Shown here piece by piece: positions 4,949 through 44,400 of a stretch of 64,000 nt of DNA. Position numbers and translations under genes: made by a program. The notes under the pieces were generated by a model, which was not told where the DNA came from, did no database searches, and was given only the letters and a program-made list of their open reading frames with translations. Every line of letters starts with the position of its first letter. Position 1 is the stretch's first letter. The DNA is from Amphibalanus amphitrite (taxonomy: Eukaryota; Arthropoda; Thecostraca; Balanomorpha; Balanidae): positions 186,001 to 250,000 of the forward strand of contig NW_024881678.1 in assembly GCF_019059575.1 (NCBI RefSeq). Reading direction: 5' to 3'.

Positions 4949-7900
4949 GTATGCGCTATGTCGGCTGGCCTTGGCACGGCTACCGACGGGCGGTTGAGTC
5001 AGCTTGGCGGCCGGAACTCAGCTCTTAATTACCCGATCATTAGCAAATCATCTGTCAGGACCAAACGTCATGACCAAGTCACTACCTCGGATCCTCCCTT
5101 GAATCCTATGCTTTTACTCGCCACCGTACGGCGCCTGGTGACGCGGTTTCGATCAGATTCTCTCATCACACCGTCGGGCCGGGCTGGGATTACTGTCAGT
5201 GACCTGGTCCGCGGTGCGGCGGGCGGGGCGGCGCCGGCGGCCGACCGCTCCCCCAGGGCGTGTCCCGCGCCGGCCGGAAGTGACCGGCGGCACATCCGGC
5301 CGGCGGCCGGCTAACGGGGCCGCTCCCGCCGCTCCCGCCGCCCCGCCCCGGCCCGGCCGGCCCTGCGCTCCCACCCCATAATCGGACACAGACACCGCAG
5401 TGACAACCGGACAAAGAGCCGCGCTGAAACGGTCCCCAGCGGCATCAGAAGCTAACACGTGGCTCGGAATTTACATAAATTCGCTGAATTCCGAGCAATG
5501 AAGAGAAATGGTGACTCCAATGGATAAAACCACTTTAGGTTCAAATGAATATTCATAATCACTGCCCGCTTACTAGGAATATTTGCAAACCACAGCCCCA
5601 TTGAAATTTAAACGGCTTTAGCTCTCGCTCCGATTGAATGTTCCGGCTCAGACTCTGCAGATAATTATATCATTATAAGCAGTCCGCCTTCGGGAAAAAT
5701 TGCAGCAGTAGCCGGATCCGTGCGGGAAATGTGCCAGGTGCGGCAACACACCCGTGCTGCTCACACGACAGTCATGCCCTATCTCCCTTTTACTAACGAC
5801 TTCCTCCTTTTTTCAGCTGCGGCGCCTGAGATGAGCAACTGTAACAACGGCAATGGACAGCTGGTGTTTGAACGTGTGCCCGGATATCACCTGGAAGGAT
5901 ATGACCGAGACTATGTGAGTAACGTGTCCGGATACCGACAGGAAGGGAAGACGCCGCTCATATGATCAACTTCTCACTCAGGTGGTTTTGTCCCTATACA
6001 TAAAACGACATGGCCTCAGGTCTCATATCATCCCACCCTATTACTTTGTAGATATGCGAAAGGATGGTTATGTAATGAGCATTTTATCATTTTGAACTAT
6101 CGCAATATAGAAATCGCCGCATAACTCGAAGTGCGTGACTCCCGACGTTATAATGTCGGTAAAGTCCGAAAATTGACGTCCGCTGACTTCATTTTCTGTC
6201 CGGCAGCTCACAAAGGAAGAACAGCCCCTCACCCTGCTGGAGCAGTGTCAGACGTCGTGCATCGCCGGAAAGAGCGTCAAAGACAACCTGATCCGACCAT
6301 GCGGCTCCATCGACTACAGCCCAGGTCAGCCGGCAGCCCTTCTCTGCAGATGTTGGGAAATGGAACGACTTGTTCAGCAATGTCAAACTTTCTTCGTTCA
6401 ATCAGAACAATACCATAAATGATCGTTATCTTACATTTATCTCTAAAATTCAAATGTTTGCTCTCGCAGGTGCACCATACGGAGACGGCAAGTACGACCC
6501 GTCGGCATGCTATCTCACCGAGGAAAAGGCCAAGCCGGACGGCATTGGTAACCTCCTGCAAAAGACTGGCAACATCCATCTCAACAAGATCTGCATGCCA
6601 GGTGAGTGCTTACTGCAGTAGCCAGCAGAATCACGGGTGGCTAGGAGGTTGCAATCTGGAGCCGTTTACCTCAAAACAGCCGTAAATACCGCACGGTGAC
6701 GGTGGGAGTGGGAGCGGACGGGCTGATCTCTCGGGTTTCGAGTTCTTCTGGTGCTCGTCCACACGCCGACTGAACTGACCACCACTGACCGGGCGCCGTT
6801 GTCCACAGCGGAAGCGGTACAGCAACACTGTCCGGGAAGGATGTACGTCTTCGAGCGGCTCATCAACAAGAGCTTTAGGCCGAAGAACAATAACTGCATC
6901 GAGAGCCAAGTCGAAAATCGGTTGGAGTGTGAGCGGAGGTAAGCAGTGGAGAACGAATAACGCTTACATGATACAAATTATATTTGACTTAACTCGATCA
7001 GGTTATATAAAAAAGATACCCTTTTATCCAAGAAATGATAGGCACTCCGCCTACTCTCCGAAGTCCCTTGGACAGAAAGTAGCTATGAATGCCTTTATAA
7101 AAGTGAGACTTTCCCGGTGACTCACTACGTCGCTCGGCTGCCGTCCAGGTGCCTCGAGTCCAGCGAGGTGTGTCGCTCGGCCTCTTACAACTCCAAGAAC
7201 CGCACGTGCTACATGTGCCCCATCACCTGGCGCTCGGCTCCGAACCTGTTTGTCGAACAGCGCGACGAGGAGTACATCGAGAACCTCTGTCTCGAGAGTG
7301 AGTACATGCAGCGAGAAACTTTGTCTCGAGAGTGAGTATAGTCGACTACAGAATGATGTTCCACTTTTCACAGACCATTATTTGCCTGGCGTGGTAGGCT
7401 GTGCCGCATCACACGAGCTGAGTTCACAAATTATAGCTTTGTCCCAATGCTCACAATCGACACGCTTAATTGCGTGATAAACGGCACAACTTAGCGCTCC
7501 GGTCAACTGATAGCTTCTGAGGAGTGGAACATCATTCTGTAGTCGACAATAGATGCATCGAGAGTCTTTGTCTCGATAGTGAGAATATGCATCGATAAAC
7601 TGTGTCTCCAGTGAACATTCACGTCACATAACCCATTTCAGTCGCTGGACGTCATAACTTCATGCAATCGGAAAAGGAAAAGATATCCTCTTTCGATACG
7701 TTGTTGGAAAGTCCTTTCTGGGAGAAACCGAACTGTAAATATCTCTCTTCACCAATTATCCAAGCAATACGCCGCTAAACGTCTACACGTCTGAGGGCAG
7801 CTCTGTCCGTTTCAGAGAGCCGCCGGTGTCAGCAGCCTGATCACCTCGTCTTCGTCGAGGAGGCCAGACGCTCCCTGTACACCTCCAACAAACCTTACAG

Positions 7901-10900
7901 GAAGCGGGAGGTCACCCGCAGCGAGTGCAAGAGCATGTGCGCCGAGCACGCACAGTAAGTGGCTCAGAACGTGATTCTGCAGTGTTCGATAGTGTGATCG
8001 GCATTCGGCCACGAGCATGATCATTTGGTATATTGTTTTCTCTGTTTGCAAAGACGGTCATGTAGGATACCTGATCATCAAATTAGACGACAATAATTTC
8101 AATACATTTGTTTCTCAATGTTGTGCCATATTTGAACGGTTAAGTCGTTAGTTATGGTTGACATGGTAGTCATTAGCAAAGACTGCATCGCCACTGACCC
8201 GATGCCGCTGACCCTCAGGATCTTCTGCCGGGCCGCGGAGTTCAAGCTGACCAACAACGCCACTGGCACTGGCGACTGCTACCTGCTGGAGGACGACAGC
8301 CTCAGCGTGTCACCGGAGCTGCGAGGCAACGACGGACGCGACGACACCGACCTCATGGAGCTCATGTGCCTCGATCACGGTCAGTCATGACTAAAACATG
8401 CAGTCATACATTACAGACATCATGCATTCAAGTGCACGTAAGAAGATATAATCGTGAGCCTTTACTTTCAAGTCTAGACAGATACGTGCAATATAATGTA
8501 TATGCGTCTTTAGACGACGCGATTTACGTCCAAAACAGTGAAAAAAACGCGAGAAAAACTAGCTATGCTAGACTTTGGGAACATACGATGCGTGCTTTGA
8601 GCTTTAATTCGTCTATTCTCTGTTCCTATTCAGCCCGCCGGATGATTGATGACGAAGGTAATGTCTGATTTTCATTCGTTGACTAGCTTTTGCATGTGGA
8701 ACTCGGCAGTGTCCTGAATCTGATGAAGGAGCCAGGAGCCGTCTGACCGTATGTCTAGCAATTATTCCCCTGGCCGATGTTTTCATGCTGCAGTGTCCAG
8801 TGAAAGGACCGAAGACGTCTCGGTCTGACTGCATACGTCTTTTATCAGTGAATGACCGGTGTTTTATTCCGGACTTATCGGGCAATAGTGGTTTGACCGT
8901 GTTTATCCACTTATTAGCCAATGACCAGTATTTTCCCCTGCAATGACCGGACAGGAGCAGTCTGAATATAACAAAAAAACTGGTGGTATTCACTCTGCAG
9001 TTATAGGTCAAAAGCACTCTAACCGTTTGTGTTCAATAACCGGTGTTTTCACTCTCCAGTGATCGGTCTGGAGCAGTCGGACCGCTTATCAGCCACTGAC
9101 CTGTATTTTTTTCTTTCCTCAGTGATCGGTCAGGAGCAGTCGGACCGCACCGGAGCCGGACGGAACGAGGGCGGTCCTCTGTCCCCCGGCGGTCAACAGC
9201 CGTCCTCCGGACAGGACATGTTCACAAGGTGCGACACGACAAGTTACCAGATACGTCATAGCGGCATTTAAATACTTCGGGCCTAATGGACTAGTCTTAC
9301 AGGCTCCAAAAGAGGAGACATTTATCTAATTATCGTTCCGTCGGTTGAAGCAGGAGTTGACGCCTATTTATTTCACTCTGTTTTATTATTATTTCTTCCG
9401 GCTAGGGCATGTTGAATTTCTCATTCTCCATCAAAGACCCCGATGTACATCTTTCCACGTTCGGCCGATTCTGGCTTGTGACTCGGGTATGCCCGCCGCT
9501 CCTCCGCTCTCAGGGAGGGTCTCTACCGCGAGTCGGACCGCGAGTACGTCACTGCTTTCCGGCGCTATAGCCGTAACCGGCTGGAGGGACCCAATCCAAT
9601 CTACAGCTACCAGCAGTACTCTGCCCGGCTCTGCATGCTGGCGTGTCTCCAGACACCCGGGTAAGTGGCCCACACGCACTGGTGTGGAATAGCGAGTCAC
9701 AGTTTTAATCTGTTGTGGGAGTGGATACTAAGAAAATAATAGGAAAAGTAATCAGGCAAATAGGGTCTTCAGCATAAGTAAAGGCGATCAGATACGGAAT
9801 GTCGATGCCGATGACTTTTTAGACGGCTGGACTGTCGTTTCTGACCGAGTTGCGTGCTGTGGTGCCGCAGATGTCAGTCGATGGTCTTCAGCAAGCGGTT
9901 CGGTCTGTGCGAGATGTACAACACCAAGGACGGTGGCGGCAACGGCCGTGCCAGGCTCGTCTTCCACGAGGACTACGACTACTACGATAACCTGCTCGGA
10001 GGTAGGTTGGACAGCTCGCACTCTGATCGGTTATTTGCTCTAATCTAGCGAAGGGAATGGCTGCTGATCGTAGCGTATGTCAATCTCATTGTACGTAAAT
10101 ACGCAGACCATTTTGTGAACGCACCACTTGTAGCACTTTCACGATTTTGTCTCTCTTTCGCAGATACCCCCTTCAACGGCCGTGGAGGTCGGTTTGGCGG
10201 CGGCGGCGGTGGCGGATTTGGCTTCTTTGCCGACGGCCGCGGCCGCGGGGACGATTTCCGTGGCGGCGGAGGCCGCGACCAATTCCTCGGCGGCGGCGGC
10301 GGCGGTCGCGACCAGTTCCTGGGCGGCGGACGGGGCGGCCCCGGCCGCGACCGGTTCATCGGAGGCGGCTCATTTGAGAGCAACTACCGCGGCGGCGGCG
10401 GCGGCTTTTACGAGTCCAGAGGTACCTTTAGCGGGGGCGGAGGCCCCTTCTCGGGCGGCTCTGGCCAGTCGGGGCGCGGTGGCGGGTGGCGCGGTGGAGG
10501 CGGCGGCGGTGCCCCTCCCGCCGGCGCCGGTGGCGGGCCGCTGGGAAGCAACACCGTTCCGATTGAGGCACCGCCACCCAAGCCGACTGTCGTGTTGGTC
10601 AATGAGGGCGGCGAGGACCCCAGGGCTGACGACCTGCCGCCGGTCGGCGGCGGCGGCGGCGGCTCCTGGAGCGATGATGGCGGCTCGCGGGGCGGTGGCG
10701 GTGGATCGTGGAGCGGTGGCGGTGGATCGTGGAGCGGTGGCGGCGGATCCTGGAGCAGCGGAGACAGCTCACGCCCCGGTGGGCCGACAGGCGGCTGGGC
10801 AGCCGGCGGCGGCGGCGGCGGCGGCGTCTTCCGACCGGACGGCTCTCGGCGCTCGAACGTGATCCGCGAGGGCGGCGGCTGGGACGACTCTTGGAGCGAC

Positions 10901-21390: not shown

Positions 21391-22971
21391 AAATGTGGCC
21401 AAATCGCCAATATAATTAAAACAGTGCGATTTTAGACTTTAGTCCTGATGAGCCAGATGGTTCATATAGGATGGCTGCACGGATGGCGGTTGAATAGTGT
21501 TCGCATCTAAATTTGGCTGTATTTTAGTTCTTTTTCAATTCTGCCGCGTATCATACATATTTGGCGCGTCATGATGTGTCGCGCGTCGCGCAGTCCCAAC
21601 GCGTGTGTTGAAAACGAAAAGCAAATTAATTTATTTTCTAAGAGTGACTGGTCAAGAGTTTGGTGAAGATGTATATCGATTTCAACGTTTTCTTGTGCTC
21701 ATTTCATTTGAATGAATAATAAGCCCTTTGGTCATAATGAAGGAAGCCAAAAATAAGTCCATGGATTTTTGTTTTTGGCTCCTTCTGCTCCTTCCTTCCT
21801 AAATCCTAAGTTATGAGCAAAAGCCAACAAACAGGTCATTATTAATTTTTCTACAATTATAATAAAAGTCATGCTAAAAAACGATTCAAACCATTCAATC
21901 ACTATCAGATTTGTAATGGAGGAGTCAATAGCAGTGGAGTGTTGTCATTGGGATAAGATTGGGTGCCGACTGCCAAATGGGGATCTAGCAATAAGTGCTG
22001 GGTCATACTGTAGGTATGTATTTACCTACAGAACTTACATAAGCCATTTTGATTTATTTAGCCTAGGCTTGGTGATTTTGGCTAAATTGTTAAATACCAC
22101 AACCTCTTCCATGCTTTTTATAACATCAACATTGAAAAATGAAATGTGTGCCCCTGCCCATAGTTTACACCAGATAGCTCCGGTCTGTGGATTACAAAAT
22201 ATGCAAAATGCACAATGATCCTACATAAATAAGGCAGTGGCACTGCTCACAAACCTCACATATGATTGATGGTTTAATTGTTCATATTTAAAAGGAAATG
22301 TACCACTTTCCTCAGTTTAGTTTTTTGCTACAGTTTAATAGTTCTTATGCCTAAAATGATCAGAAAAGAAATAATAAATATTTTCAAAAGGAGTTTTTTA
22401 AACCATTTTTGTATAGGAAGAACTATACTCCATCTTTGATAGAGGCTAAATTGAAATAGTGGTGGCACGGAAGCTTATAACATGTTCATAAATCATATTG
22501 CGTACTTCAAAAGCAACTGCATGCTGATTGGCTGAGCTTAGCCTCTGTGACAGGTGGCTCAGGCTGCGTTCTTGGCATTCCTCTACATGTGACACATTCC
22601 TCTACACTCTATAGGCACTTTTTTTTTTTACAAAGAATTGAATATATTTGCAATTTGCATAGGATGATTATTGAGGCACACATGACACAAGCTCCTGATT
22701 TGTGCTAGTCTTAGCTAGGGAGGTACTTTGAGGCTAACCAAGATCTCTCTCCTGATTTCTTGGAATTGTGAATAGTTAAGTTTATGTTAAGTTATTTCAA
22801 AAGCTTTAGGTGTGGTCATTTTTGGCAATTCTGAAACCTGGAATATCTCCCTCTTCATGTAATATCCGTGATCGATCTGAATGTGAAATTGTAATGGAAA
22901 GATAGGTGGCCTTGCTATATCACTAAGACAGAAATACTGCATTTTGTTTGCAAGGTCAAATGCTAGTTTAA
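21391..22971. other. AT-rich intergenic DNA with a decayed family (ii) relative
   Basis: From about 22300 to 22750 the sequence parallels 46327-46851: a start like AAAGGAAATG, AAAATGATCAG, ATAGGAAGAACT and AGCTCCTGATTTGTGCT occur in the same order. The 115-codon frame at 21871-22218 has no recognisable features. Upstream exons of DIS3 could lie here but none is identifiable. Confidence 0.4.
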
Positions 22972-24307: not shown

Positions 24308-27300
24308 ATGCTGAAGCAAAAAGTTTTTTTGAAGAAGAACAGAAGAGGAAATGTTCTTAAGGTATGACTTCACTTTAGCCCAGGCATTTAGGCTTAAATA
24401 GGTATGACATAGGAATAGGATACTGTTGCAAGAATCACAAATAAGAATTGGCAGTCACATATTTTGCTGCCTTTGTCATAGTAGGTCTTCATTAAAATGC
24501 ACGATATATTTAATTGAGAAGTTTTGAAAAGGGTAAGTCTTATAAGGATTAACATTTATTGTTGGATATGAAAATATTTCATTACACTACCTGAATAACT
24601 GTCATATTGCAGACCCATGTGTTTTCCAAGTTTCATTGTGTCAGTTATACAAAAGCATGGGCACCGGGCAGGTGAATAAATGAAAGTCGCCCATGTGTGT
24701 ATTTTTCAGATCCATCAGGAGGTCTAAATTGTCCTTATATGCCATTTGATCGACAAAAGGGGCTCAGGCAGCCAGCAAAAACGACAATGAGCGTACTTCA
24801 ACAAGCCTCACAACTTATCAGCCAGATGAGCACATGACACAGATTAATAGCCGGCACTCCTGTCCCACATCGCGTCCATCCGTGCTGACGCCCGGCTGAC
24901 CCGGCAGATTGTCCGCGAGCACTACCTGCGCGATGACCTGTGGTGCGGCGTCGACGGCTGCTCCAAGTGCGAGCTTCAGACGTCGGGCCAAACGCCCCTG
25001 TCGCGCTCCCTGGAGTCGCCCAGCACCGCCGTGCCTGAGCCGCACGTCCTGATACCGGACACCAATGTTATCCTGCATCAGGTGGGTGAGAAACTTGGCA
25101 CACAGTGTGCAGGCCTCATCTCTGCATCTTGATCCGCACGACGAACATTTGCAGGGGATGTACTGGGTGGTGGAAAGGTACCTGATCTTACCTGAAAGTG
25201 GGCTCGCATTTTTCACTGATGCGACACATTTTGGTGTTGGTGTCTTACAGCATTGATAACATGCTAATGCCCGTTTTTTCCTTATGGCAGCTGGAGATCC
25301 TGTCCAGTGATGCCATCAAGAACGTGGTCCTGCTGAAGACTGTGCTGGATGAGGCGCGGAAGCGCAGTCCTCCACTGTTTAAGAAGCTCACGGATCTGAT
25401 GTCTGCTACAGACAAACGCTGCTACGTCTTCATCAACGAACACCACAAGTACGATATTTCGTAGCTGAATTGAATTTTGTCTCTAGGATTACTAGCTCAC
25501 TTAGTTGAACAATGATAAAGTTCACAATAGAGACTGCCGGCAGACAGAGGCCATTTTCTCCATTCAGTAATGCAAGCTGGCGAACTGCTGTTTTTAACTC
25601 TCTGCGATCTATCCGCCTGTCCACTGACCGCCCGTTCAGTTCACTAACCGCCGATCTTCCATCCAGGGACACATTCGTGGAGCGGGTGGCCGGCGAGACG
25701 TCCAACGACTACAGTGACCGCCTGATCCGGCGGGCGGCGCACTGGTACAGTGAGCACCTGGAGGGCTCCGGCCTGAGGGCCCTGCTGCTCACCGACGACC
25801 GGGACAACCTCCGCAGGGCCAAAAAGGAGGGCGTGCCCTGCATGAGAGGTACGAGACCGCTCATATCCACCGGAGATAGCTGGGGCTATGAACGGGGTGG
25901 TAGACTGGGAACCAGGCAGAGAAGTTTGAGGATCGAATCCGTATTTCATCGTTGGAATTTGACATTAGAGGCGTGGTTTGAAATATGTCAGTGGTTAGGT
26001 TTTGTTAGCTAAGAGCGACCTCTTAATATTACTTGACTTTGGCTCGCGCTTCTAACTATTAGCTGGTGCTGTCGGCAACGCTGTTATTTTCCACTGTTAC
26101 CTGGCCGCTGCAGATGCTATACCCTCTCCGTCTTTAGTTTCTGCCTACGTGTGGTCGCTGAGCGCCCACCCGGAGCTGGTGGACCAGCTGGCCGCCCTGG
26201 ACTGCGCCGGCGCCGGAGACCACGCCGTCACCTACCCGGAGCACCTCAGCCTGGCCGCGCTGCAGAGCGGCGTGCGCACCGGACGGCTGCGCCAGGGGAA
26301 GTTCTTCGCGAGAGACGACAACTACCTGGAGGCGACGGTCATGGTGGAGGGACTCGACCAGCCGGTGCGTGAGGGTCGGGCAGCAAAGGGGGCTGTTCGC
26401 ATGTTCGACCTTATTGACTGTTTTCATTTGCTTTATACAGTAGCTCTGAGTGGCACTTACGCTAATGATACTGCTGTTGAAATAAAGTCACTCCAGCGCC
26501 AAATGTGCGTTGTGTTTTTTGGTCCGTGCGGTGTTTAGATCCCTGACTGATTTTCCGGCCACTGCAGCTTTGCTGTTCATCTCTGTGTGTGCTTATTTGA
26601 TAATCTGACCATCACTTGTGTGTCCATCTCTCAGGTGCTGCTCCAGGGCCGGTACGACCTGAACCGCGCCGTCCAGGACGATATCGTGGCCGTGGAACTG
26701 TACCCCAAGGACCGGTGGTCCGTGCCCTCCAACATGGCCCTGCTCGACACCGGCTTTGAGAACGGTCAGTACGCAGGACGCTCGACGCTCGGCCGGTTAC
26801 GGAGCAGTATGGTTTACCCGCTGTACTGCCTGGTTTATTATGTTTATTTATGTTTGAATTTGCTTTTTACGATGCCAATGAGGAACGAGGATTGCTAAGG
26901 GGTTTATCCGTTTATGAAACGAGGCCGCTCCGCTAACAAAGTCTCAATCGTGTTTTGTTCAGATTACTCCTGTGAGCGGGACTTTCCGCCTGCTTCGTGT
27001 CTGGGCCAGCCGGGCGCCCAGCCCACCGGCCGCGTGGTTGGCATCATTAAACGCAAGTGGCGACAGTACTGCGGCATGGTCGAACTCAACCCCATCGCTG
27101 AGGTAAGTCATCGGCCACTTCCCTGTGGGTTTTATGGTTGGTATTTTGTTTGTTTTATGATAAAAACATGAACACAAGCAATTCGTTGACTTTGTCGGGC
27201 AATTGCTAAGTTACTTTGCATTATCGATTGTTCCTTGTTTTCTAACTTTCTGTCTAATTACACCCCAAAGCTGTTAGTGTTTACCTCCGTGACTAGACTA

Positions 27301-30300
27301 TGCGCGTTACTTCCGCAGGAGATGTCTCACCAATTTGTTCCGGCCAACGACCGAATACCGCGGGTGGTGATCCAGACTGCCCGGGGCCGCCAGCTAGCCG
27401 GGCAGCGGGTGGTGGTGTCCATCGACAGCTGGCCGCGCAACTCCCGCTACCCACAGGTAAGGCCCCGAGACGTCAGCTGGCCGGGCAGCGGGTGGTGGTG
27501 TCCATCGACAGCTGGCCGCGCAACTCCCGCTATCCGCAGGTAAGGACGTCAGCTGGCCGGACAGCGGGTGGTGGTGTCCATCGACAGCTGGCCGCGCAAC
27601 TCCCGCTATCCGCAGGTAAGGACGTCAGCTGGCCGGACAGCGGGTGGTGGTGTCCATCGACAGCTGGCCACGCAACTCCCGCTATCCGCAGGTAAGGACG
27701 TCAGCTGGCCGGACAGAGGGTGGTGGTGTCCATCGACAGCTGGCCGCGCAACTCCCGCTATCCGCAGGTAAGGACGTCAGCTGGCCGGACAGCGGGTGGT
27801 GGTGTCCATCGACAGCTGGCCACGCAACTCCCGCTATCCGCAGGTAAGACAACTCCTGGTACTCAGAGTTAAGTAAGACTCTGGATCTCATGCCCTCAGG
27901 TGAGACCAATCCCGGTATCTGCCCGTGATATCCGCCCAGCAACTCCCGGTACCCAGGTGATAGTAACTTCCGTTACCCACTGGTCAGGCAGGAGTCAGGA
28001 AACGCGACAAGTCCCGATACCCGTCAGGTGACACACGGCAACCCCGATAGTAGACAGGTGGTACAGTGGATAGTAGCGTTCGGTACCCACTGGTCAGACA
28101 GGGAAGCTTACAATATCAACAGCTAGAGCGATCTTGGCAGGAAGTCTCCCAAAGCCAAGGGGTCTGGTCGATGTGACGTAGGTCATAACATCGCAGATGC
28201 TTTGTAAGCTGGCAATTTACCTGCCCGGTGAGACTGCATCTCAGAGGCTTGCGAGTCAGCTAGTGGTTGGAGTGCCTTGATTTCGTTGCTTGTTGGGAGT
28301 GTGCGTTGAGCATTGTGTGTTGTGTCGTCTGAGCCCGCCCATCTGACTCTGATAACGGTTCTGTCTCCAGGGCCACTTCTGCCGCGACCTCGGCAAGATC
28401 GGCACCAAATCTGCCGAGAACGAAGTACTGCTGCTGGAGCACGACGTGCCGCACAGTCACTTCTCTGAACCGGTGCTGGCGTGTCTGCCGCAGCTGCCCT
28501 GGGTCATCACCCCGCAGGTGAGCAGCGCCCGCTTACTGTTCGGACTCGAACCACGATACTCGTCCTGTGCTTACCTCCCGAGTCTCAGTGCTGGCCTGTG
28601 TACCGCAGCTTCCCTGGGTCATCACCCCGCAGGTGCGCAGCGCCCGACCACCGCCGAAACCACGGCACTCGCCCGTTTCACAGTGCTTACCGGCTACCGT
28701 TCAAATTCTGGTGCTGGCCTGCCCGCTGACTTGAATTAATTACTCGAGTGAACGGTATGCATTTATTTCCCAGCTGCAACTCATTTCGTCCCTAAATATA
28801 TTAATTTCAGTGAAACACAAAACAATAGCGCTGTGGGAAGGGAAGCATTGACATTTACTTGGCGATTTTCTGTTATTCTGACGTGACGATTTTTTTTTTT
28901 ACTTTTTTGGCCAGAGACGGCTAAAAAACCTTTGCTAACGCATTGACGTGACGTTACACTTATTAACCACTTATAATTATTGATCGGTAGGTATGTGTTT
29001 GGTAGTTGTACTGGCCTACGGCTACCACTTTCGGTCAATCGTCGTTCATAACTCAGCGGAAGTTGATGGCGTTGGCCATGGCTCTGGCCGCCTCGGCCGG
29101 CTCCAGGCCGTCAAACAGGGCCGGTCCGAACTGCAGAGGGAACGCGGCGGCCAGCAGGGCCTCCTCCCCGTCAAACGGTGCGTTCTCCTCCTCGGCACTG
29201 GTGCTCGTCTCGTCGGCGCCACTATCGTCGATATCGTCCTCGTCGATGTTCCGCGGCGCCGGTGCCGGCGGCGGTGGGGGAGGCGGCGGCGGAGGGGGAG
29301 GAGGCGGCCCCGCCATGGCGCTGGTGGTGGCCGTGGTGGCCATGCCGCTGCTCGCGCCGGCCATGGAGTTCACGGTGCCGGTGAAGACGGAGACGGTGGC
29401 GGGCGGGCCGTGGCCCAGCGTCGGCACTGAGCCCGCCTGGGTGGCCACGGCGCTGGGCGCGCCCGCTCCGCGCTGGCCGCCGCCGCCGGTCCGTCGCTCG
29501 TGCCGCGCCTCCTCAGCCAGTCGCCGTTTGCCGGTGCTGCGGCCGGCGCCGACCCGTCGTCCGGCCGGCGGTGGGGGCGGCGGCACGCGCTGTGGCGAGA
29601 CTGACCAGCTTACGTCAGTAAAGGACCTGTGCGACCGATATGAGTGGATTACGCTACAGACCCGGACGGAGCCCCAAACTTTGTGCCCTAACTACTGACC
29701 TTTGCCAGCGGTGCCTGTGGAGCGCTCCATGACCCCCGCGTCAGACTGTTGCATCTGTACCAGCCGCCGCACTACCAGAGTCTGCAGCCCGGCCAGCGCT
29801 CGCTGCTTCTCCTGCCGGTGGTGTCGGCATTAAGACATGCAAACAAACTCCCCCTCTACACACTTAACGTCCTCTTCTCCTCCCCATTGATCTCTACTTT
29901 TTATACAGTGCCTATGCTGCGAGCGGAGTCCGCGGTGGGGCAAGGAAGCGATCTAGCTCACCGTCAACTCGGTGCGCAGTTTTTCCAGTGCCTCGACATC
30001 AGCCGATGTGCCCTTCAGCGACTGCCATTTGGAGTAAGCTTCCTTCTCGTGCGCGGCTGCCAGCTTACCGACCTCAGCTTGTTCTGCACAAACAAAAGAA
30101 AGATATTTACTCGGTCCGTTACGATAAGGCACAGTACCTGCTCTAACTCATGTATCATGTGCCTCGTCCGTCATCGAAGGGGAAATAATGGGCATCCGTG
30201 GGTTGCCCGTGGGTTTGCCAAGAATTTTGGATTTGTGGTGCTTAATGCATGACGCTGATTTATAAGTGGGTTATTCTAGGCGCACTTTTGCTTTTTGGCA

Positions 30301-33300
30301 GAACTTAAGCTCATAATATCCATTGGAACCAATGAATCAAATACAATAAACATGCACCACATATATTACATTTATGCGTCTCACTCAGTGCGACATGACA
30401 GAGGTATAAAGCACATCGAAGGGACACACCGTAGCCTGTCTTTTCATTTGATTCATGGTTCCTATGGACATTATGAGCAGTCACGGAAAAAATGATATTC
30501 TTTCAATGAGCCACATCACTTTGTGCTAAATCTGGGTTTTACACCTTTCCCAGATGTTTCATTCCTAACCCTTTGCTGTGGCATTGGTGACGGCTTTCTT
30601 CATGACAGCGATGTCCTTTTTGACGGCCTTGTGGCAGCTGGTGGTCCTCTGTAGACTGGCCAGCGCCTCAGCGAGCTCTCCGTAGAGCTGCTCCAGCTCT
30701 TTGACATCCCTGCTGAGCCGCTCTGTCGACTGACTGCAAAATAGAAAGGAGAGAGTTTGATAATGGTTTAGTTGCGATGCGAACGTTTATGACACTGGCT
30801 ATGAATTAGGTCCATCGCCTCCTCCCCCACCGATAACTTTTGTAGGAGCGCTTATTTAACATGCGTATGCGAGCACTCTATACCAAGATCACTTGCCTCT
30901 GATTCTGCTAGCTGACATCAAACCGCATTAAGGGGTCAATAATCGATTGTTAACTTACGATTGTTTAACATTGAGGGTTTACGGTACTTACTTGGTGGCG
31001 TCGGTACATTCGCGGATAACTTGCATCAGTACGTCCTTCTTTTCCAGTGCGTCTCCCCACAAATCCAAAAGTTTTTTACCTTCCACCTTCAGCTCGCTTA
31101 TCCTCTTTTTCTCCTTTGCTTGGTGTTCGAAGCTTTTGACACTCTGTATGGCAGCGTTGGCCTCTCCGATTTGTGCTATGACTTTATCCGCCTCAGTATT
31201 TTGCTGTTCCAACGGAGACTGCTCCTGTTCGTCTTTATCAGTGTCCTCTGCGCTCGCTAAGGCCTCATTTTCTGACTCTTGCGCTAGGATTACCCTGTTG
31301 ACTTTCTCGAACTCCCCGAGAACTGTGCTGTCAGGTTTGTCCGGCGGAGTCTGATACTCCGGCCGCTGCCTCTTCACCTTAGGTAGGTCTTCCTCCTCAG
31401 TCTCATCAGAAGAAACCAAGTCACTTTCACGGAATCCAACTCGAGTCGGTCTGGCAGTGGTCGGTCTGTTCGCACTCGATTCAGGAGAGGCTGAGGTGGT
31501 AGCGATGGGCTCGCTGGATCCTGATACACCGAGGTCACCGTTTTGGTCCTGGCCTTGGCTCTCCGTGGACGATGCGAGCTGGATCACGATCGCGGGGCAG
31601 CTGGCGGCTGGTGGTGTGCGGTCCGGCTGTGCCGTTTTCGTGGTCGGTTGACCGCCAGAGGTCGCTGCCTGACCACTGGAAGTCGCCGGCTGGCCGCTGG
31701 AAGTCGCCGGCGTTGAACTCCTTCGAACCTGCCGGGCCTGAGTCGATTGCCGACTCTGTGGCCGAGACGGTCGGGAGGGCGACTGCTTCTTGAACCACCT
31801 GTCCCACCAACTAGTGGAGGGCGCCGACGCGGGCATTTCATAAGCGAAGCTGTAGCGGTGCTAGACTTTGCAGTATGTGGACATCAATATCAGGGAATTT
31901 ATGTTCTGGATATAAATTATTTTTTGATACATTTGCAAAGTTGTTCAGTCCCGCAAGAAAAAGTCAGATAGGCATTATAATTGTCACCACGAAATTTAGT
32001 TATGTCGCTTTATTACAAACGGACAGATGTCTGCAATTTGCGATTTGCGCGTCTTTCTGAAGAATGCGTTTTGCAAAAGTATTTTCCACGTGCGTTAGTA
32101 ATGTGCTAGACGCTAGTGAAAGGAGTTGCCACCTTTTCAGCTCACGTGCTCACACATTGTCATTTCTCAGCTCTAGCGTGCTATATTCCCATTGGGAAGT
32201 TATTGAAAGCTGTGTGACAGTGTTTTGGACAGTGCCCTGCTTATTTACGCCCCTGCTGTCCACTAGGCTAACCCATACCTACGCTGGTGCTCAGTGTGCG
32301 CTGACCTATGAGATGAGCATCGAGCTGGGAAATATGAATATCAAAGCCTCTGCCACAGTGAGTTACCACGCTCTCCCCTTGTTTCAGGATGAAGCGAATC
32401 GTGTGGACCTGCGCCATGTGGATGTGTGCTCGGTAAGTGTCTCATCATCAAAATATTCAGTCGAGACATAACTCACTCCGCAGTCCACATATCCGGCTCA
32501 GGCGGCTGGCTTAGACTCAGAGTGCTATTTGCATTTGATTTTTGACGCAGGCTTCTTGTTTTGTTGAGAGTATATTTTTCCGCTCTGCAGTAAACTGATG
32601 CATTTGTAACCCCTTCTGACGAAACTTGCTTTCAAATCGGCCCTCATTCGGTCCTCCGGTTAAGTCCACTCCACCCATCCATGGAGTGTGCTTCTCCAAT
32701 GACCCAAACACCAAGCAGGGTCAGTATTTTCCATTGATCGGCTGATGTGTTTTTTTTCTGCCTCAGGTCGACCCGCCGGGCTGCACAGACATCGATGACG
32801 CCCTGCACTGCATACCGCTGAAGAACGGGAACTATGAGGTACATGGTGATCATTTGGAACTGAAGTAAAGTAAGACGGACATATGTCAACACACCGTTCC
32901 GTGCTTCTATCCTCAGGATACAGAAATCCTTCTCCTCCACGCCGCAACCCCCTCCGGACTGGACAGGCAACTTTATCTCATGCGGGCTGCTCCCTTGGAG
33001 CGGCACCGCTGCTCCCGAGGGAGCGCACCCCGTAGCCGGGTGCAGTGAGTACCTTGGGGCAGGGTGGCCTGTCCTCTGGACGGGCTCAGCCCCGGTGACT
33101 CACTAGGGTGCCTGCCCAGACCAATGTCTCCCCCTACATCCTATCATCCTCCCGGCTCTGAAATGGTCTCATTGGACCGAAAGGGCCTAACCCAACAAAA
33201 CAAACAAACAAAATATGTCAACATTCAGCGTAGCGAAGTGACACATAATTGAGAAACCAATTGTTGGACATTTGACGTAAAACCAAAAGGGAAATCCGAT

Positions 33301-36300
33301 CCCTTCATCCTACGCTCAGGGCAGGCGCTCGAAATGGCCGCCCTGTTTTGGGCAGCGCTGCTCGGCTTGGCGCTGAGAGCGGTATGCCATTTGCCGCAAC
33401 TGGTCCTTACTGATGTTGTGCGCAAATTAATCCATCATATTCTTGTTACCTCAAGGATTAGGGCCTGATGTTTGTCCAGGCATTTTTTTAGGGCATAGTG
33501 AAATTATTTGCCCGCAACATCAGCGAGGAGCAGCTGCGGCGAATGGCATACCGGTCCCAGTGCCGGGCCGAGCAGCGCTGCCCGAAACAGAGCGGTCATT
33601 TCGAGCGCCTGCTCTGAGCGTAGTAAGAAGGGATCGCATTTTTGATTGGTCGTACATCAAATGTCCAGCAATTGCCTTTCCAATGACGTGTCACTTCGCT
33701 ATGCTGAATGTTGACAGTGACTGACACTGTCCTTAATCACGTCTTACTTTATTTCAGTTCCAAATGACCATTCTGTATGTGTCAGATTTCTTCACTAGTC
33801 TGAACTAAGGTACAGTGGCTTAAATGTTGCATGGTGCAAATGGTACTACAGGCAGGGATCACTTTGTCAATGAAGACTTTTCTTATAAATATACCTACGT
33901 ACGAGTTTTAACAAGCCCGATTTTCGGTGACCGTTGTGTGTAGCGCTCTGCTGTGTGCTTGGGCACTGTCTGACCGTGTCTGGCGGCAGGTGGGCGTCCA
34001 CATTGCGGACGTGTCGCACTTCATCCGGCCGGGCACCGCCATCGACAAGGAGGCGGCCAACCGGGGTACCACCGTCTACCTGATCGACAAACGCATCGAC
34101 ATGGTGCCAGGTGCGGCATGCCCTGGCCAAGCCTGCTCAGCCTCTCATGCTGTACTGGCCTTCGCCCATCCCATACCCTCGATGACCTCTGTCCCCGTTC
34201 ACTCCACTTCTGTCCAGTCATCTACTCATCTTTTATCTGCCATCTACCACATTTCCCTCCGAAGTCGCGGAGAGAGGCTCATTTTGTATATCTTTTTAAG
34301 TATTTACATCCCGCACAGGTTACTCGCAGTCGCTATGAAGCAGCATGCTTTGATAATAATCATTCGAAATCAGTAACCCTATTTGTCTTTATAACTCAAA
34401 CGATGTTTGGTGCCATTTCAGATCTGCTCAGCTCGAACCTGTGCTCGCTGCGCGGCGGGGAGACCCGGTTCGCCTTCTCCTGCATCTGGGAGATTACTCC
34501 CAAGGCGGAGATCGTCAACACAAAGTTCCACAAGTCCATCATCAGGTGGGCAAACTGTTTTCTTCTTGTGTGCCGGTTTAGTTGGTGACTCTTTGATCAT
34601 TTTTTTAATTCCTATCGAACATTTGCAATGACAGGATTTGTTAACGTATTTGAAACGGAACATGATAAGATGTGTCGCTTGCTTATCACTTTTCACTTTA
34701 GGACTGTTTACAAGTACTCCACAACAGTCATATTTTTATGTTTCTAATAATGGTGTCAAGGTGACAATAGATGGGTAGTGGGCTGGGATGGAGTTTATTC
34801 TACACTTTCCGGAGAATGTCCCGTCACTGTTCCCGATCTCCTCAGGTCCCGCGCAGCGCTGACGTACGCAGAGGCTCAGCTGAAGATTGACGATGTCACC
34901 CAGCAGGACGCCGTGTCGATATCGCTGCGCGGCCTCAACATGCTGGCCAAGCAGCTCAAACAGCGCCGCCTTGACGACGGGTGCGTACCGCCGACCGACT
35001 TAGGCATTTAGCTTGGTTTCACCGGTCGATTTCAGTGTCGATTTGTTATATTACATCATTAACGGGTAATCAGCCGATGACAGGTTCAGTCAGTGAGGGC
35101 ATTGTATGTCAACATCGCTGTATGCTCTCCTATGTAGATCATGGGCGCTGGTCATTCTCATAAGCTATGAAATAATATTGTATGATGCGTTGCTAAGTCT
35201 GGCGCTCACCTGGTAGCTGGCTTCCCGCTTCCCTTTGGCATTGAACTATGACACGTTCTGTCTGCTCCGACAGCGCGCTGCTGCTGGCCTCTCCGGAGAT
35301 CCGGTTCCACATCGACTCGGAGACGCACGACCCGATCGACGTCCAGTCCAAGCAGCTGCTGGAGACCAACTCGATGGTGGAGGAGTTCATGTTGCTGGCC
35401 AACGTGTCGGTGGCCGAGCAGATCCTGCACGAGTTCCCAGAGTGCGCGCTGCTGCGGCGGCACCCCGAACCGCCGCCCAGCAACTTCCTGCCGCTCATCA
35501 AGGCCGCCAGACTGCAGGTACTGCATCGTGCGGGGCCGCTCACAGCCTTCAGACGAGCGGTAGTATTATTAGATTACTCAGATTACACTTGCCGTGTTTG
35601 CACCTCACATTGAAGTTTGGCTACATTTTTGCATTTGTTACGCTGCTGTGCTTGCTTGCACCAGTGGAGAGAAAGTGCGACTTGCGAGCCAAGTGTATCG
35701 TTAGTGAACATGTGGCGTCGTCTTTATCCGACAGGGTTTCGAGCTGGACGTCAGCTCCAACAAGCGTCTGCAGGAGTCTCTGAACTCCGCCGTGAAGCCG
35801 GCCACGCCCTACTTCAACACGATGCTGCGCATCATGGCCACACGCTGTATGATGCAGGCGGTGTACTTTTGTACGGGAACCGTCAGCAGGGAGCTGTACC
35901 AGCACTACGGACTGGCGGCACCCATCTATACGCACTTCACGTCACCCATCCGAAGGTAAGAACTAAGGGCACGCATCTACAATTCTACACCCACTTCGTC
36001 ACCCACCCGGCGGTAAAGACACATCAGCTCATGAGGTGAGGAGTACGACTATGGACAGGGAGGCGTCCATCAGACTTCATTATATCAGGCTGCTACCCCG
36101 AGTGAGACAGTGTCCAACTGCATCACACACGTGAACTGCCCGAGGTGGCATTATCTGAGGCATCGTCGCAGCAGCTGCGGTGTGCCGCCCTTGTAACACC
36201 GTACCCTGCTTCCTATTCGCAGGTACGCCGATATCATCGTGCACCGTCTGCTGGCCGTGGTCACCGGCCAGGACTCCACCTACAAGGAGTTGCTCGACAA

Positions 36301-37918
36301 GCGGCGAACGCAGAACACCTGCAACCACATCAACTACCGGCACCGGATGGCCCAGTATTCGCAGCGCGCCTCAGTCGGACTGCACACACACGTGAGTAGC
36401 GCAGCAATGGCTGGGAGCCAGCACCTGTTTACTGAACGTGATAGGGGCTTTGTTCTCGTTGTCCAGGAGCTTGCTGTCGCGATGTCGACAGGGTGGCAAT
36501 GAACGCTCATAGTGTCCGCGTTCGGCAGCAATAACGTAGCTTGGGGTGGTTTTGGTGTCACGCTCATCTATTGCCTGTTGATCGTAACGTTCTATCTGGA
36601 CACGGTCGTGTGTTGGGTGTGGCCGACCTGTCCGATACGCCACACATCACAAAATAATGACTTCATTTTTGCAATTTTGTTGAGTTGCGGGAAGACCAAA
36701 GTGTATGTGAAAAATTATTCTTTTCCGTTACGCGTTCTGTCGAAACCATATCAGTTTACGGTCTCTACCGTCCGTTTTCTCGGCTGACTATTTGCTCTGT
36801 CCGCGCGCAGTTATTTTTCAGAGAGCGTGTGCGGGAGGAGGAGGGTTACGTGCTGCAGGTGAAGCAGAACGCCGTCTCCGTGCTGGTACCCAAGTACGGC
36901 CTGGAGAGCACCATCCTGCTGCCCGGCTCCGAGCGACAAAACGCCACAGTGCAGTTCGTCTACGACGAACAGGTGAGTCTGTTCGACGAGTATGCCGACG
37001 AGTGAGGGCGTTTCGACGAGATGAATAGAGAGAAGGGAGAGGAACAGTGCTCAAAGACGCTTGTGTCAGTGAGCGGCCGCGGCTAGATGAATGCATAGAC
37101 CTCTGTAGACCTCGGCATACAAAGGTCTATGATCAGGATGGGACTGCCAGTCACATTAAGTAATGGGCGGTCCGAAAAGGAGTTAAGTCGTCCACGTGGA
37201 ACGGCCAGTTTGATGTTTGACGAGCTGACGAGGTGCGGTGTGTGGTTGGGATAGTCCGGGGTGTGGTACTATTTTATATCGGTCGATGTTCTGATGCGCG
37301 ACTGTGGCCCTCATTGTGACTCGCTGTCCGTTATTCACCAGGTGCCCTGTCAGTCTGCGGCCGGGGTGACGCTGCGTACCTTCGACAAGGTCATAGTCCA
37401 GCTGTCGGTTGAGTCGCGGAACATCCAGCAGCAGAAGCTCGTCATGAAACTCGTCAAACCAGAGGTAAGGCCACACCGAACTGCACTGCGGCTACAACAG
37501 CGCTGGCATCTCGATCTGCTCCGTGGTTGTTGGCCTTATTCTTTCGTTAATTATGCATTCATTCATTCATTCATTCATTAGTTGATTCATGCACACACTG
37601 TACAACAAAATAAATATCCAGTCGACGAGTATTGCATCCCTGACTCCGCCGATATGTCGTGCCTCCGCAGTACTGTCTTTAACGAATTAGCCCGGGGTCA
37701 ACTGGGTCCATGTGCCGTGAGCTGCGCCCTTCGCTCACCGTCTAATCGGACGCCGCTACTGCCGACAGATCCCTGGTTTCACGGTGGAACCGCTGGAGCC
37801 GCCGCCGGAACCACTGCCCGAACCCAGTGCTGCTCCCGAGCCGACCAAACCCAGCTCCAAGGCGTCGAAACGGCAGCGCGCAGATGCCGCCAGGCCCACC
37901 AAGAAGAAAACCAAGTAG
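24308..37918 (+). CDS. DIS3: DIS3/RRP44 exosome exo- and endoribonuclease
   Basis: Exons: 24308-24361, 24908-25081, 25291-25448, 25667-25848, 26138-26364, 26635-26764, 26963-27102, 27319-27456, 28371-28517, 32388-32432, 32767-32838, 33990-34110, 34422-34545, 34846-34980, 35274-35517, 35735-35955, 36223-36391, 36811-36972, 37342-37464, 37769-37918; 971 aa (human about 958). DIS3 is the catalytic subunit of the RNA exosome, degrading RNA 3'-5' and cutting internally. Order: CR3 cysteines (CGVDGCSKC), PIN nuclease ([16 protein letters not shown]), cold-shock domains ([23 protein letters not shown]), RNB catalytic core ([35 protein letters not shown] segment near 35935-36240), S1 domain (exon 18) and a Lys-rich tail suited to nuclear import. 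Acidic catalytic residues of both active sites are present. Start chosen because [10 protein letters not shown] matches the family N terminus. The donor of exon 8 is embedded in a 76-bp tandem array. Confidence 0.95.
27457..27849 (+). repeat. Tandem array of DIS3 exon 8 tail plus splice donor
   Basis: After the exon 8 donor at 27457, the exon's last ~65 bases and GTAAGG recur five times, with donors at 27540, 27616, 27692, 27768 and 27844. Steps are 83 bp and then four of exactly 76 bp. Copies differ at only a few positions (for example GCGCAAC/ACGCAAC). Because 76 is not a multiple of 3, retaining a copy shifts the frame. Confidence 0.95.
28518..32387 (+). other. DIS3 intron 9, host of an antisense gene
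   Basis: It begins with a second exon-tail duplication (28588-28640, weaker at 28706) and then spans the nested minus-strand gene at 29053-31836. 31837-32387 lies upstream of that gene and probably holds its promoter; no motif could be fixed. Confidence 0.75.
29053..31836 (-). CDS. Nested antisense gene: coiled-coil, proline-rich protein of unknown function
   Basis: Exons in transcript order: 31836-30992, 30733-30570, 30083-29962, 29811-29700, 29600-29053; phases close to give 596 aa. Residues 1-170 are Ser/Thr/Gln/Pro-rich and disordered with an early WWDRWFKK and acidic patch ([17 protein letters not shown]). About 180-425 is a heptad-rich coiled coil continuing smoothly through four exons, which argues the joins are right. 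430-530 is basic then Gly/Ala-rich with a 14-proline run, and the tail is acidic, ending [12 protein letters not shown] and about 16 further residues. The donor after exon 2 (GTTAGG) is weak; without it the frame stops two codons later. I do not recognise the family. Coiled coil plus polyproline suggests a scaffold or cytoskeletal/nuclear adaptor, as inference only. Confidence 0.65.
32843..33775. repeat. Long inverted repeat in DIS3 intron 11
   Basis: Left arm 32843-32880 plus 33224-33435 and right arm about 33500-33775 are roughly 85% identical inverted copies (for example ATTTGGAACTGAAGTAAAG against CTTTATTTCAGTTCCAAAT; CAGCGCTGCTCGG in both). The left arm is split by a SINE-like insertion. 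The left arm starts only 4 bases after the exon 11 donor. A short frame ending in TGA at about 33616 lies in the right arm but is not supported as a gene. Confidence 0.75.
32892..33212 (+). mobile_element. SINE-like retroposon with target-site duplication
   Basis: About 320 bp ending in (CAAA)n and flanked by an 11-bp direct repeat ATATGTCAACA (32881-32891 and 33213-33223). The flanking duplication and simple 3' tail are hallmarks of retroposition. It interrupts the left arm of the intron 11 palindrome, whose other arm shows the uninterrupted sequence. Shared blocks (TATCATCC, GGACCGAAAGGG-like) link it to 62100-62262. Confidence 0.75.
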
Positions 37919-41400: not shown

Positions 41401-44400
41401 GTGCCAATTACAAAGTATTTTGTTTTGAAACAAGATATGAGGAAGTCTTTCACCTTGGTATGAAAACTAACGTAGATACCAATTACCTCGGAGGCGAGCC
41501 TACTTAAACATACACTATACAGCCTACTTAAACATAGAGTGGTTACATCTCTGAAGTACTCTCGAGGGGTAATCTCGCCTCACAGTCTCACCTGTTCCTT
41601 GAAGTCCCGTTTGAGTTCGGTGATGCTGCGGCACCAGTATTCGCACGTTTTCTCGGAGATGAGCTCGATGTTGAGGAAGGAGCCCTGGCCGGGTCCGTAG
41701 GTGTGTCCAGAGGTGGTGCCGCGCACGATCCGAGGCGACACGTTGGTCACCAGATCCTGTTGAGCACACACGATTTAACGAGCAAATATGGACGGTAACT
41801 GCCACAGTGCCGGCACATCGGAACGTCTCCCCAAACCGCCGGAAACCTGCGTATCCCTTGATTGTACCGCGACTTTGAAGGACTGAAACGAAGTACTGTA
41901 AAAAAAAACGAGAGCTTGAACACTCACTACGCCGTCGTCAGTGACCTTTCGGGAAGGAGTCCGTCAGAAAATCGGGTTCCCGCCGCCTACCTTGTTGAGT
42001 GAGAACGTCTTGGTGACGTTGAATCCCCAGCCGGCCTCAAAGGAGCGGCGCAGCATGGGCGCCGAGGTGGTGGGCGGCGCCGAGGCCAGGCCGAACGGGT
42101 TCGGGAAGCGCAGGCCGCAGATGTCCACGCTCAGGTCGACGGCGTCCACGGCCGTGTAGAACTTGGGCAGCCGCGGCTGGGCCGGGATCGGGATGCCGTG
42201 CAGCGACTGAGAACGACGGATATGACACACCGAATTTAACAACTGAATCATCATAGGCGCATCACAGTTCGATTCTGGCTATTTAAGTGCATCGTCTGAT
42301 CTGCGTTATATCTAGTGAGAATCGAATGTCCTCTTATCAATCTTTCTTATCAATCTGATCCATCCGATACATTTTTTTGCCTGCTTTATCCATCATCCTT
42401 ACACTTCATCCCTGCATTCCTACCCACCTGCAAGTACTGGTGGATGCTCCAGGCGGCCGTTTTTCCGTCGTTGACCGACTCCACGGTGGTTTCGGCCACG
42501 CCCGCCAGGTCTCCGCCGGCAAACACCCCCTCCTCGCTGGTGGCCATGGTGTCCGGGTTGACCTCAGGTAGACCCCAGCGGTCCAGACGCACCGGCGCCA
42601 TAGCTACCTGAACTGCAGGGTCGGTCACAGGGAACGGTCAGGCCTCCAAGACCGTGGGCAGGCCCCAAAGGACTAGACGTACTGAGTAGCACAACTTCCA
42701 AGTAAATTAAGCATGCCCCGAAGTCCATGGTCTCGTCAGTCGTCACACTTCCCTTTCCACCAGTTGATTACCTGCTACCTGTTGATACCTGCTCACCTCC
42801 GGTGCTGCTTCAACTTACCGCCACTCTCAGCTCACCTTCCCTACCCTTCCGCTCACCCGCTCACAATGACTCACCACCGGGGTCGCTGAGGCCGCTGCCG
42901 AAGGCCGAGATGACAAAGTCGGCTCGGATCCGGTTGGTCTGCTCGTTGTCTGTGACCCAGCGGCCCGAGTCGTCCTGTTCGGTGCGGCAGAACTCTACAG
43001 CGGTGATACGGTTGTCACGCACTATCACCTTGCTGGGCTCCATGAACGGCACGAACTCACATTGTTCTTCGCGCGCCAGCTCCATCTGCAAATGGAGTCA
43101 GTGAACCAATCAGTTTCGCGGGTCAGGGTATGGTATGTACCATAGACCTAAAAAAGTATCAGCGGCCCGATCATATGAGGGAACACAGGCTACTAACAAG
43201 CGTCAGCAGACCGGTTATTTTAGAAGCGTCATTGGTTGGAGTCTCGAATAATCATTTCACTGCATGCTTCGTCAGCGGAAAAACGTATCTTTACATAGCT
43301 GATGTGACAGGAAGCAACATTAGATCCTTTTTTGCCCACAGTCCAAATACCATATGAATTATGAAAAGCGCTCTACCAAACAGATTCGCTCTAAACCCAC
43401 CTCCTCGGGCACGGCCCTGATGTTGGTGAAGCCCTTGCGGAAGACGACGTAGACGCGCCGCGCACCGCAGCGGAGCGCCGACGTGGCGCAGTCGAACGCC
43501 GTGTCGCCGGCGCCGAGCACAATCACGTTACCGGAGAGCTGCGGCAGCTGGGACTTGCAGCTGCACATACCTGGGAACGGAGGATGTCCGGCTCAGGCGA
43601 GCTGCTTGAATTGTTGCATTTTGTCCTCACCGCACCGTACAGAGGCATTGAGCCCCGTAACGAACCGGTTCTGTCATCGATTGACAAGTCAGCGATGTAG
43701 GTTAACACTTGAGCGATATTTCCAGGCCGGCTCGTCTAGCGCTGAACCATCTGAGGTAGGGATTCTCTTATAAAAAAATCCTTGGATGTAAGCAAAAAGG
43801 AAGGCTTTGTACCTCAGCAGCTGCATCCACTTACAAACCTGCTTTGCTGCCGGCTGCCACTTTCGGCAGAAAATCTTTGGAGGTGAAGAAGCCCATGCTT
43901 TCCGTCAGATTTTCAAATATCGGGATCTTTTTGGGCTGAGGCAGACCTATACCCAGAAAGATGGCCTCGTATCCCTCCGCTTGAAGCCCCTGTAAAGACA
44001 CCGTTCATCAGGAAAGTTATGTAAGGCACTTATATGTTGAAGGCGACAAGGAATAACGAAAGCATCGATTTCTCTTGAATTCCAGTAAACAACTTCCTAG
44101 TTAAGCAATGATGGAGCTAAGGGACCCGGTAAGATGGAGCTAACTGATTCTCTAAATGACCCGTCTAGGAAATGCACAGCATTTAGCGGGACTGGCGTCT
44201 GGATGACCGGGCGCTGACCTTGACGGTGAGGTCGTTCTCGGCGAGTGCCTTGCCGGTCACCACCTTGACACCCAGGTCCTTCATTAGCTCCACCTCAAAG
44301 TCGACCACGTCGTACGGCAGTCGGTACTGCGGAATCTCCGACGAACTGCGGCGAAAGAAACAGTTATTGGTGCTTTATTGTCTCAGAAATCCAACCGCAA

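Follow-up and report, generated by a model that had tools for sequence, protein, structure and literature searches.

The window, by which we mean the whole stretch of 64,000 nucleotides analysed here, lies on contig C181 of an assembly of 807.55 Mb and carries two conserved genes, both modelled in frame. DIS3, on the plus strand, has 18 modelled exons at 24889-37917 and, in addition, a small exon near 32400 which divides the modelled intron 8 into two introns; the exon numbering is that of a model that may miss a 5' exon. The other gene, on the minus strand, is modelled with 14 exons, in frame throughout, and is presumably DPYD. The long DIS3 intron at 28800-31900 has open frames on the minus strand, proline-rich ones and others (29053-29691, 30988-31860), perhaps of a nested gene. 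At 55651-59614 lies a 153-bp satellite in two large arrays of opposite orientation, each with about 600 codons open in one frame. The subject of this study is one DIS3 exon and the intron behind it. As the original prediction had it, this exon belongs to DIS3, since its best match in PDB is human RRP44 (E 1e-33). The features of this region are as follows.

27319..27456, plus strand: DIS3 exon, number 7 in the model; ends CCACAG/GTAAGG; RRP44 match; in-frame model; length and junctions equal in the second genomic version on contig C83 (see below)
27391..27456, plus strand: unit 1, formed by the exon's final 66 nt (22 codons), with its donor GT at 27457
27474..27539, plus strand: unit 2, after 17 intronic bases behind unit 1; donor at 27540
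27550..27615, plus strand: unit 3, with intronic spacers of 10 bases from here on; donor at 27616
27626..27691, plus strand: unit 4; donor at 27692
27702..27767, plus strand: unit 5; donor at 27768
27778..27843, plus strand: unit 6; donor at 27844 (GTAAGA)
27850..28098, plus strand: decayed, older copies of the exon end and donor; seven matches scoring at least 9
28099..28370, plus strand: remainder of the intron, of no recognisable repeat origin, with its own acceptor at the end (28370)
28371..28517, plus strand: following DIS3 exon, whose tail and donor are duplicated too

All six donors that had been predicted are present, with GTAAG after each of the six 66-nt units, the exon's own tail being one of them. 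TRF places 5.0 copies of 76 bp at 27469-27848 (98% matches, score 732), and the array includes the exon's canonical donor, at which unit 1 ends (27457). Two details of the original prediction hold in part: the steps of 76 bp are right for the later units, whereas the first step is 83, owing to the 17 intronic bases between units 1 and 2 in place of 10; and CCGCAG, said to occur in every copy, stands at the ends of units 2-6, unit 1 having CCACAG instead. In the exon's frame, the six sites at which units 2-6 differ from the exon are all synonymous. Downstream of the array, seven matches to decayed copies were counted, whereas 100 mononucleotide shuffles gave 0.31 on average and never more than 2. 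With array and relics taken together, about 640 nt of the 914-nt intron resemble copies of the adjoining exon's tail and donor.

The splice potential of the units was scored against the window's own gene models (30 model donors, from which a donor weight matrix was built, and 29 model acceptors). The prediction that the six donors look equally usable was borne out: five score 10.8 and the last 11.1, with 8 and 6 of the 30 model donors, respectively, scoring higher. In the acceptor role, the end of unit 1 scores 7.65 and those of units 2-6 score 9.2, which exceeds 17 and 22, respectively, of the 29 model acceptors; among 384 decoy AGs the 99th percentile lies at 9.1. The AG/GT junctions of the units are therefore splice-like in both roles by score, although their tracts are T-poor, with 2-3 T per 18 bases, whereas at least four are present in 27 of the 29 model acceptors. 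In addition, every internal AG is followed by GTAAG, so that a donor would be rebuilt after a first step. These properties raise the explanation that the array is normally spliced out stepwise, by recursive or dual-site splicing, with each AG/GT serving first as acceptor and then as donor. It agrees with AG/GTAAG at all unit junctions and with the acceptor scores set beside the decoys, and jumps that restore the same donor would carry no cost. However, a one-unit step of 76 or 83 nt falls far under 198 nt, the shortest of the 29 introns measured in the window's two genes, so that only jumps over at least three units fit the range, and the poverty in T of the tracts speaks against it as well; we consider this explanation unlikely.

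The reading frame bears on the other form of alternative splicing. Retaining one, two, four or five extra units had been predicted to shift the frame; this was mistaken, for the lengths added by one to five units (83, 159, 235, 311 and 387) equal 2, 0, 1, 2 and 0 modulo 3, and two or five extra units are neutral by length. Nevertheless, one extra unit gives a frameshift, and with at least two a TAA inside a GTAAG is reached at codon 74 from the exon start. Because every donor past the first thus leads to a frameshift or a stop, a productive form of the alternative-splicing cassette once proposed for this array is unlikely, and we infer that DIS3 protein requires either use of the first donor or a removal of the array that restores the first junction. 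The latter would be harmless: splicing from donor 1 to one of the internal AGs, whichever it is, should leave the final mRNA unchanged, because GTAAG stands behind each AG. A regulated cassette of another kind, in which later donors yield poison transcripts and the level of DIS3 is tuned, draws on the same frameshifts and stops, on the strength of donors 2-6 and on the human ABCA7 array, where retention of one unit occurs and is out of frame (PMC5954066). Against it stand two results described below, namely that the unit number differs between two versions of the gene, and that similar arrays occur at unrelated genes, which suggests a mutational rather than a gene-specific cause. We rate it somewhat lower than recursive splicing, that is, as improbable.

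The DNA of the array matched one other place in the assembly, on contig C83, where DIS3 and DPYD lie in synteny with the window, in blocks about 79-96% identical. GT and AG are retained there at all modelled junctions, and the intron with the array has the same layout with its acceptor conserved. The two versions are about 3% apart, by 90 nt in 945 codons of DIS3 and 83 nt in 863 of DPYD; over 944 codons, DIS3 has 87 synonymous differences and two non-synonymous codons. For comparison, the divergence of alleles in one barnacle has a median of 5.3% with a range of 2-11% over 66 coding genes (PMC8270832). Because the assembly also contains other genes in duplicate, at equal scores on different contigs (AAA domains, chaperonins), C83 is most probably the other haplotype retained in the assembly; it could be a paralogue rather than an allele. 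A large structural difference was also observed upstream, where about 30 kb extra in C83 separates sequences that adjoin each other in the window (21452-21470).

The two versions differ in the array itself. The unit number differs, with six in C181 against five in C83, and the filler of 17 nt lies between units 4 and 5 in C83 and between units 1 and 2 in the window; moreover, one unit of the window is identical to two units of C83. The moved filler is explained by putative unequal exchange or gene conversion extending to the exon copy, and not by loss of a single unit. These differences also bear on the doubt, raised together with the original prediction, that the array is an assembly artefact of one true copy. 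It is true that short tandem repeats are prone to error and that many loci are kept twice in this assembly; however, the units have private differences, C83 has an array of its own that is differently and independently arranged, and diverged single duplications occur at two other DIS3 donors, so that inflation or collapse of the copy number is extremely improbable. The conserved acceptor bears on another idea, that tandem duplication of AG/GT is giving birth to an intron, in the sense of Rogers, and has been caught in progress. The family of ideas is right, in that the duplicated segment ends in CAG/GTAAG and neighbouring copies could provide a donor and an acceptor. However, the duplication crosses an existing junction, and the intron does not lie between copies, as a newborn one would: it extends past the array to its own unrelated acceptor (28370) in the window and in C83 alike, which makes intron birth very improbable.

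The unit sequences also suggest how copies in exon and intron are related. Among the 11 units of both versions there are 10 variable sites, nine of them synonymous, and the exception, a non-synonymous change, belongs to the final unit of C83, which is intronic. Three variants occur both in an exon copy and in a minority of the intronic ones. Between the versions, synonymous differences number 7 in the 22 codons of the exon tail and 80 in the 922 codons of the rest of DIS3 (P 0.0035 by a post hoc test), and seven differences are reached in 4 of 923 sliding windows. As support for exchange this excess is weakened by the post hoc nature of the count; moreover, five of the 10 variable sites are accounted for by variants confined to one exon copy, for which no exchange is needed. 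The high proportion of synonymous sites (9/10) prompted the idea of coding selection on the intronic copies, and intronic variants are synonymous in 4/5 cases both in DIS3 and in a second out-of-frame array, that of a HAP1_N-like gene on contig C109 (pooled, 8/10; P 0.0004 at an expected 0.25). Once these ten variants were separated, those shared with an exon copy were synonymous in 5/5 cases and those never found in one in 3/5 (P 0.10), and the idea was given up. Passage through the exon position would suffice to produce the synonymous bias, with no need of selection on introns.

Other splice junctions of the window were surveyed with a tail test, in which every exon tail, extended by 8 intronic nt, was aligned with the intron that follows it and compared with 300 dinucleotide shuffles, at 30 donors. 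Three of these are outliers, all in DIS3: intron 7, which bears the array (score 62, null mean 10.0), intron 8 (43 and 8.6) and intron 14 (19 and 8.7). Strong duplications of the tail thus occur at 3 of 17 model donors in DIS3 and 0 of 13 in DPYD. The acceptor sides of the 30 junctions in DIS3 and DPYD gave scores of 13 at most, though 3/30 had p below 0.02. The duplicated junctions besides the array are listed below, one of them in a PAN-domain gene.

28588..28646, plus strand: copy of 28473-28531 (45 nt of exon tail and 14 nt from the donor on), 59 nt, 92%, 115 nt downstream, in DIS3 intron 8; in C83 too
35984..36016, plus strand: diverged copy of tail and donor of the exon ending at 35955 (TSPIRR), 57 nt downstream, in DIS3 intron 14; the C83 copy is without GT
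7309..7336, plus strand: copy of tail and donor of a PAN-domain exon (PF00024, E 4.1e-6) that ends near 7297

Counting the copy just listed, which adjoins the original, the exon tail of the PAN-domain gene (7262-7611) recurs three times; the two others are near 7544-7584 and 7590-7611, about 250 nt downstream, and GTGAG is present in two of the three. At 9046-9148, an acceptor-like sequence with its following bases occurs twice, 63 nt apart, with degenerate copies upstream at about 8840-9000, a possible array on the acceptor side; Pfam gave no match for the frame downstream of the duplicate. On the minus strand at 42770-42875, the DPYD intron that follows the exon with its end at 42875 opens with a cluster of GTGAG- and GTAAG-like words, and the tail test at this exon was non-significant (score 10, p 0.12).

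For the rest of the genome, we searched for the pattern CAGGTAAG N40-70 CAGGTAAG, which is splice-like by design, with the reversed pattern as control. The raw counts give no excess genome-wide: 137 + 118 = 255 places for the pattern against 133 + 252 = 385 for the control, whose places, among the matches listed, are largely interspersed repeats and microsatellites. Of 14 loci examined, a sample biased in that the pattern picks splice-like words, eight are apparent splice-junction arrays, classified by an open frame next to the array.

Donor-side arrays, by adjoining open frame: C109, C172, C182, C14, C9
Acceptor-side arrays, by adjoining open frame: C16, C314, C17
Not, or not clearly, junction arrays (6/14): C115, C21, C27, C35, C11, C23

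Seven donors in steps of 65 nt are found in the HAP1_N-like C109, for which a search gave no second place in the assembly, and 19 donors in steps of 31 nt, with two alternating types of unit, behind an exon of the TTL (tubulin-tyrosine-ligase) family at C172:335600-339100 (L043). On the minus strand of C182:900-4400 (L044), six units of 72 nt are open in frame as a protein repeat of 24 residues, with AG/GT at most unit ends. As the unit is open through all copies, C182 was rejected as a further intronic array and omitted from the pooled count above, and its synonymous excess (11/13 variants in the first five units, 12/19 with the sixth) is uninformative on introns for the same reason. Pfam matched five of eight peptides, with TTL, Tcp10_C and Carboxyl_trans above the curated cut-off and HAP1_N and MFS_1 below it; there was no match for those of C182, C14 and C35 in this set, which includes C35 and leaves out C9.

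A search for AAA domains, which is not based on splice words, led to an exon whose tail and donor recur in C1594, with five occurrences, and in C448, with four, as read by eye from the sequence; from a TPGFSG motif we take the gene to be AFG3L2/paraplegin-like. In two chaperonin genes, on the other hand, none of 11 introns has a donor-tail duplication (one boundary having a doubtful donor), and none of 11 acceptor sides scored above its own shuffles; a tail score of 17 in these genes, higher than in the corresponding shuffles, turned out to reflect a missed exon. Tandem repeats are common across this genome, and the junction arrays may be part of its overall richness in minisatellites.

Taking these results together, we think it quite probable that the DIS3 array is a minisatellite of variable number whose unit spans the exon-intron boundary, with 66 nt of coding sequence, the 5' splice site and a short piece of intron, and which is concealed by splicing. 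We base this on the difference of six against five units, the shifted 17-nt filler, the relics and the variants shared between exon and intron; on the intron and acceptor conserved in C83 together with the stop or frameshift at later donors; on the excess of differences in the exon tail, with the reservation made above; on the two further duplicated donors of DIS3 and the comparable donor-side arrays in other genes; and on the ABCA7 array of like layout, which is spliced mainly from its first GT in the account of PMC5954066. Such an array would have originated in a tandem duplication across the DIS3 donor, and unequal exchange, gene conversion or slippage, at times taking in the exon tail, would have changed its length. 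It would be tolerated because splicing hides it. Donor 1, the closest to the exon's acceptor, is predicted to serve most transcripts; a jump to an internal AG would rebuild the donor with the GTAAG that comes next and leave the mRNA unaltered, while a later donor used alone would cause a frameshift or stop, and the transcript would probably be degraded. The net outcome would be a longer intron with spare donors and no new form of the protein. One point against this reading is that the later donors score as high as the first, so that nothing in the donor itself accounts for the preference for the first one, whose use in the DIS3 array we infer. Another is that C83 may be a paralogue, in which case the two unit numbers would not be those of two alleles.

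More tentatively, and with rather less than even confidence, we suggest that splice junctions in this genome are recurrent seeds of polymorphic minisatellites, in which exon tails or heads are copied with their splice signal into the adjoining intron, exchange sequence with the exon, itself held under coding constraint, and later decay to ordinary intron. If this is true, introns grow outward from their own exons, and the single duplicates, the arrays of 5-19 donors, the relics and the in-frame coding repeat are natural experiments within one diploid assembly, whose stages bear on the choice of donors, on recursive splicing and on the growth of introns. The lengthening of introns and the spliceosome's selection of one among identical donors are old problems, for which minigenes are the usual tool; a series of near-identical donors, with copy number differing between two versions of a conserved gene, would make donor choice, recursive splicing and tolerance measurable. 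Moreover, with the exon's coding tail as one unit of the minisatellite, coding and intronic copies could exchange sequence.

Several known systems are comparable. The human ABCA7 VNTR in intron 18 is the closest in layout, since its array starts at the donor of the exon, has a GT donor in each unit and varies in length (PMC5954066). Its 25-bp unit, of which there are up to hundreds, is described as intronic from the GT on, the first GT is canonical and retention of one unit is out of frame (PMC5954066), whereas in DIS3 the coding exon contributes 66 nt to the 76-nt unit and supplies unit 1 with its own tail. The human CBS 844ins68 is likewise a polymorphic duplication over an intron-exon junction that is concealed by splicing, but it is a single duplication of 68 bp at intron 7/exon 8 on the acceptor side, while that of DIS3 is on the donor side with many units (PMC2630376). 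UBC and other repeats, with the polymorphism of VCX3A, share with DIS3 the units bounded by AG/GT, possible dual sites and polymorphic copy number, and the expansion of repeats with AG/GT dual sites was proposed as a route to new introns (PMC10809524). The units of UBC, however, are coding, in frame and supported by reads (PMC10809524), and the extra units of DIS3 are intronic, out of frame and known from sequence; C182, open in frame throughout, is closer to UBC than the DIS3 array is. Intron gain by tandem duplication of an AGGT segment is similar in what is duplicated, and the potato duplication also spans an exon-intron boundary, but there a new intron arises while in DIS3 an existing one is lengthened. 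Boundary minisatellites also alter intron structure in human segmental duplicates, with 27 intron modifications, in recently duplicated paralogues as opposed to the conserved genes studied here (PMC2812944). In the literature searched, which covers few subscription journals, we recognised no report of donor-spanning minisatellites as a genome-wide feature, nor, within the same scope, one with the exon's coding tail as the exchanging unit at several loci of one genome. What is new here, as far as can be told from the DNA, is the coding sequence within the unit, its apparent exchange with the exon and the presence of such arrays at several loci in one genome.
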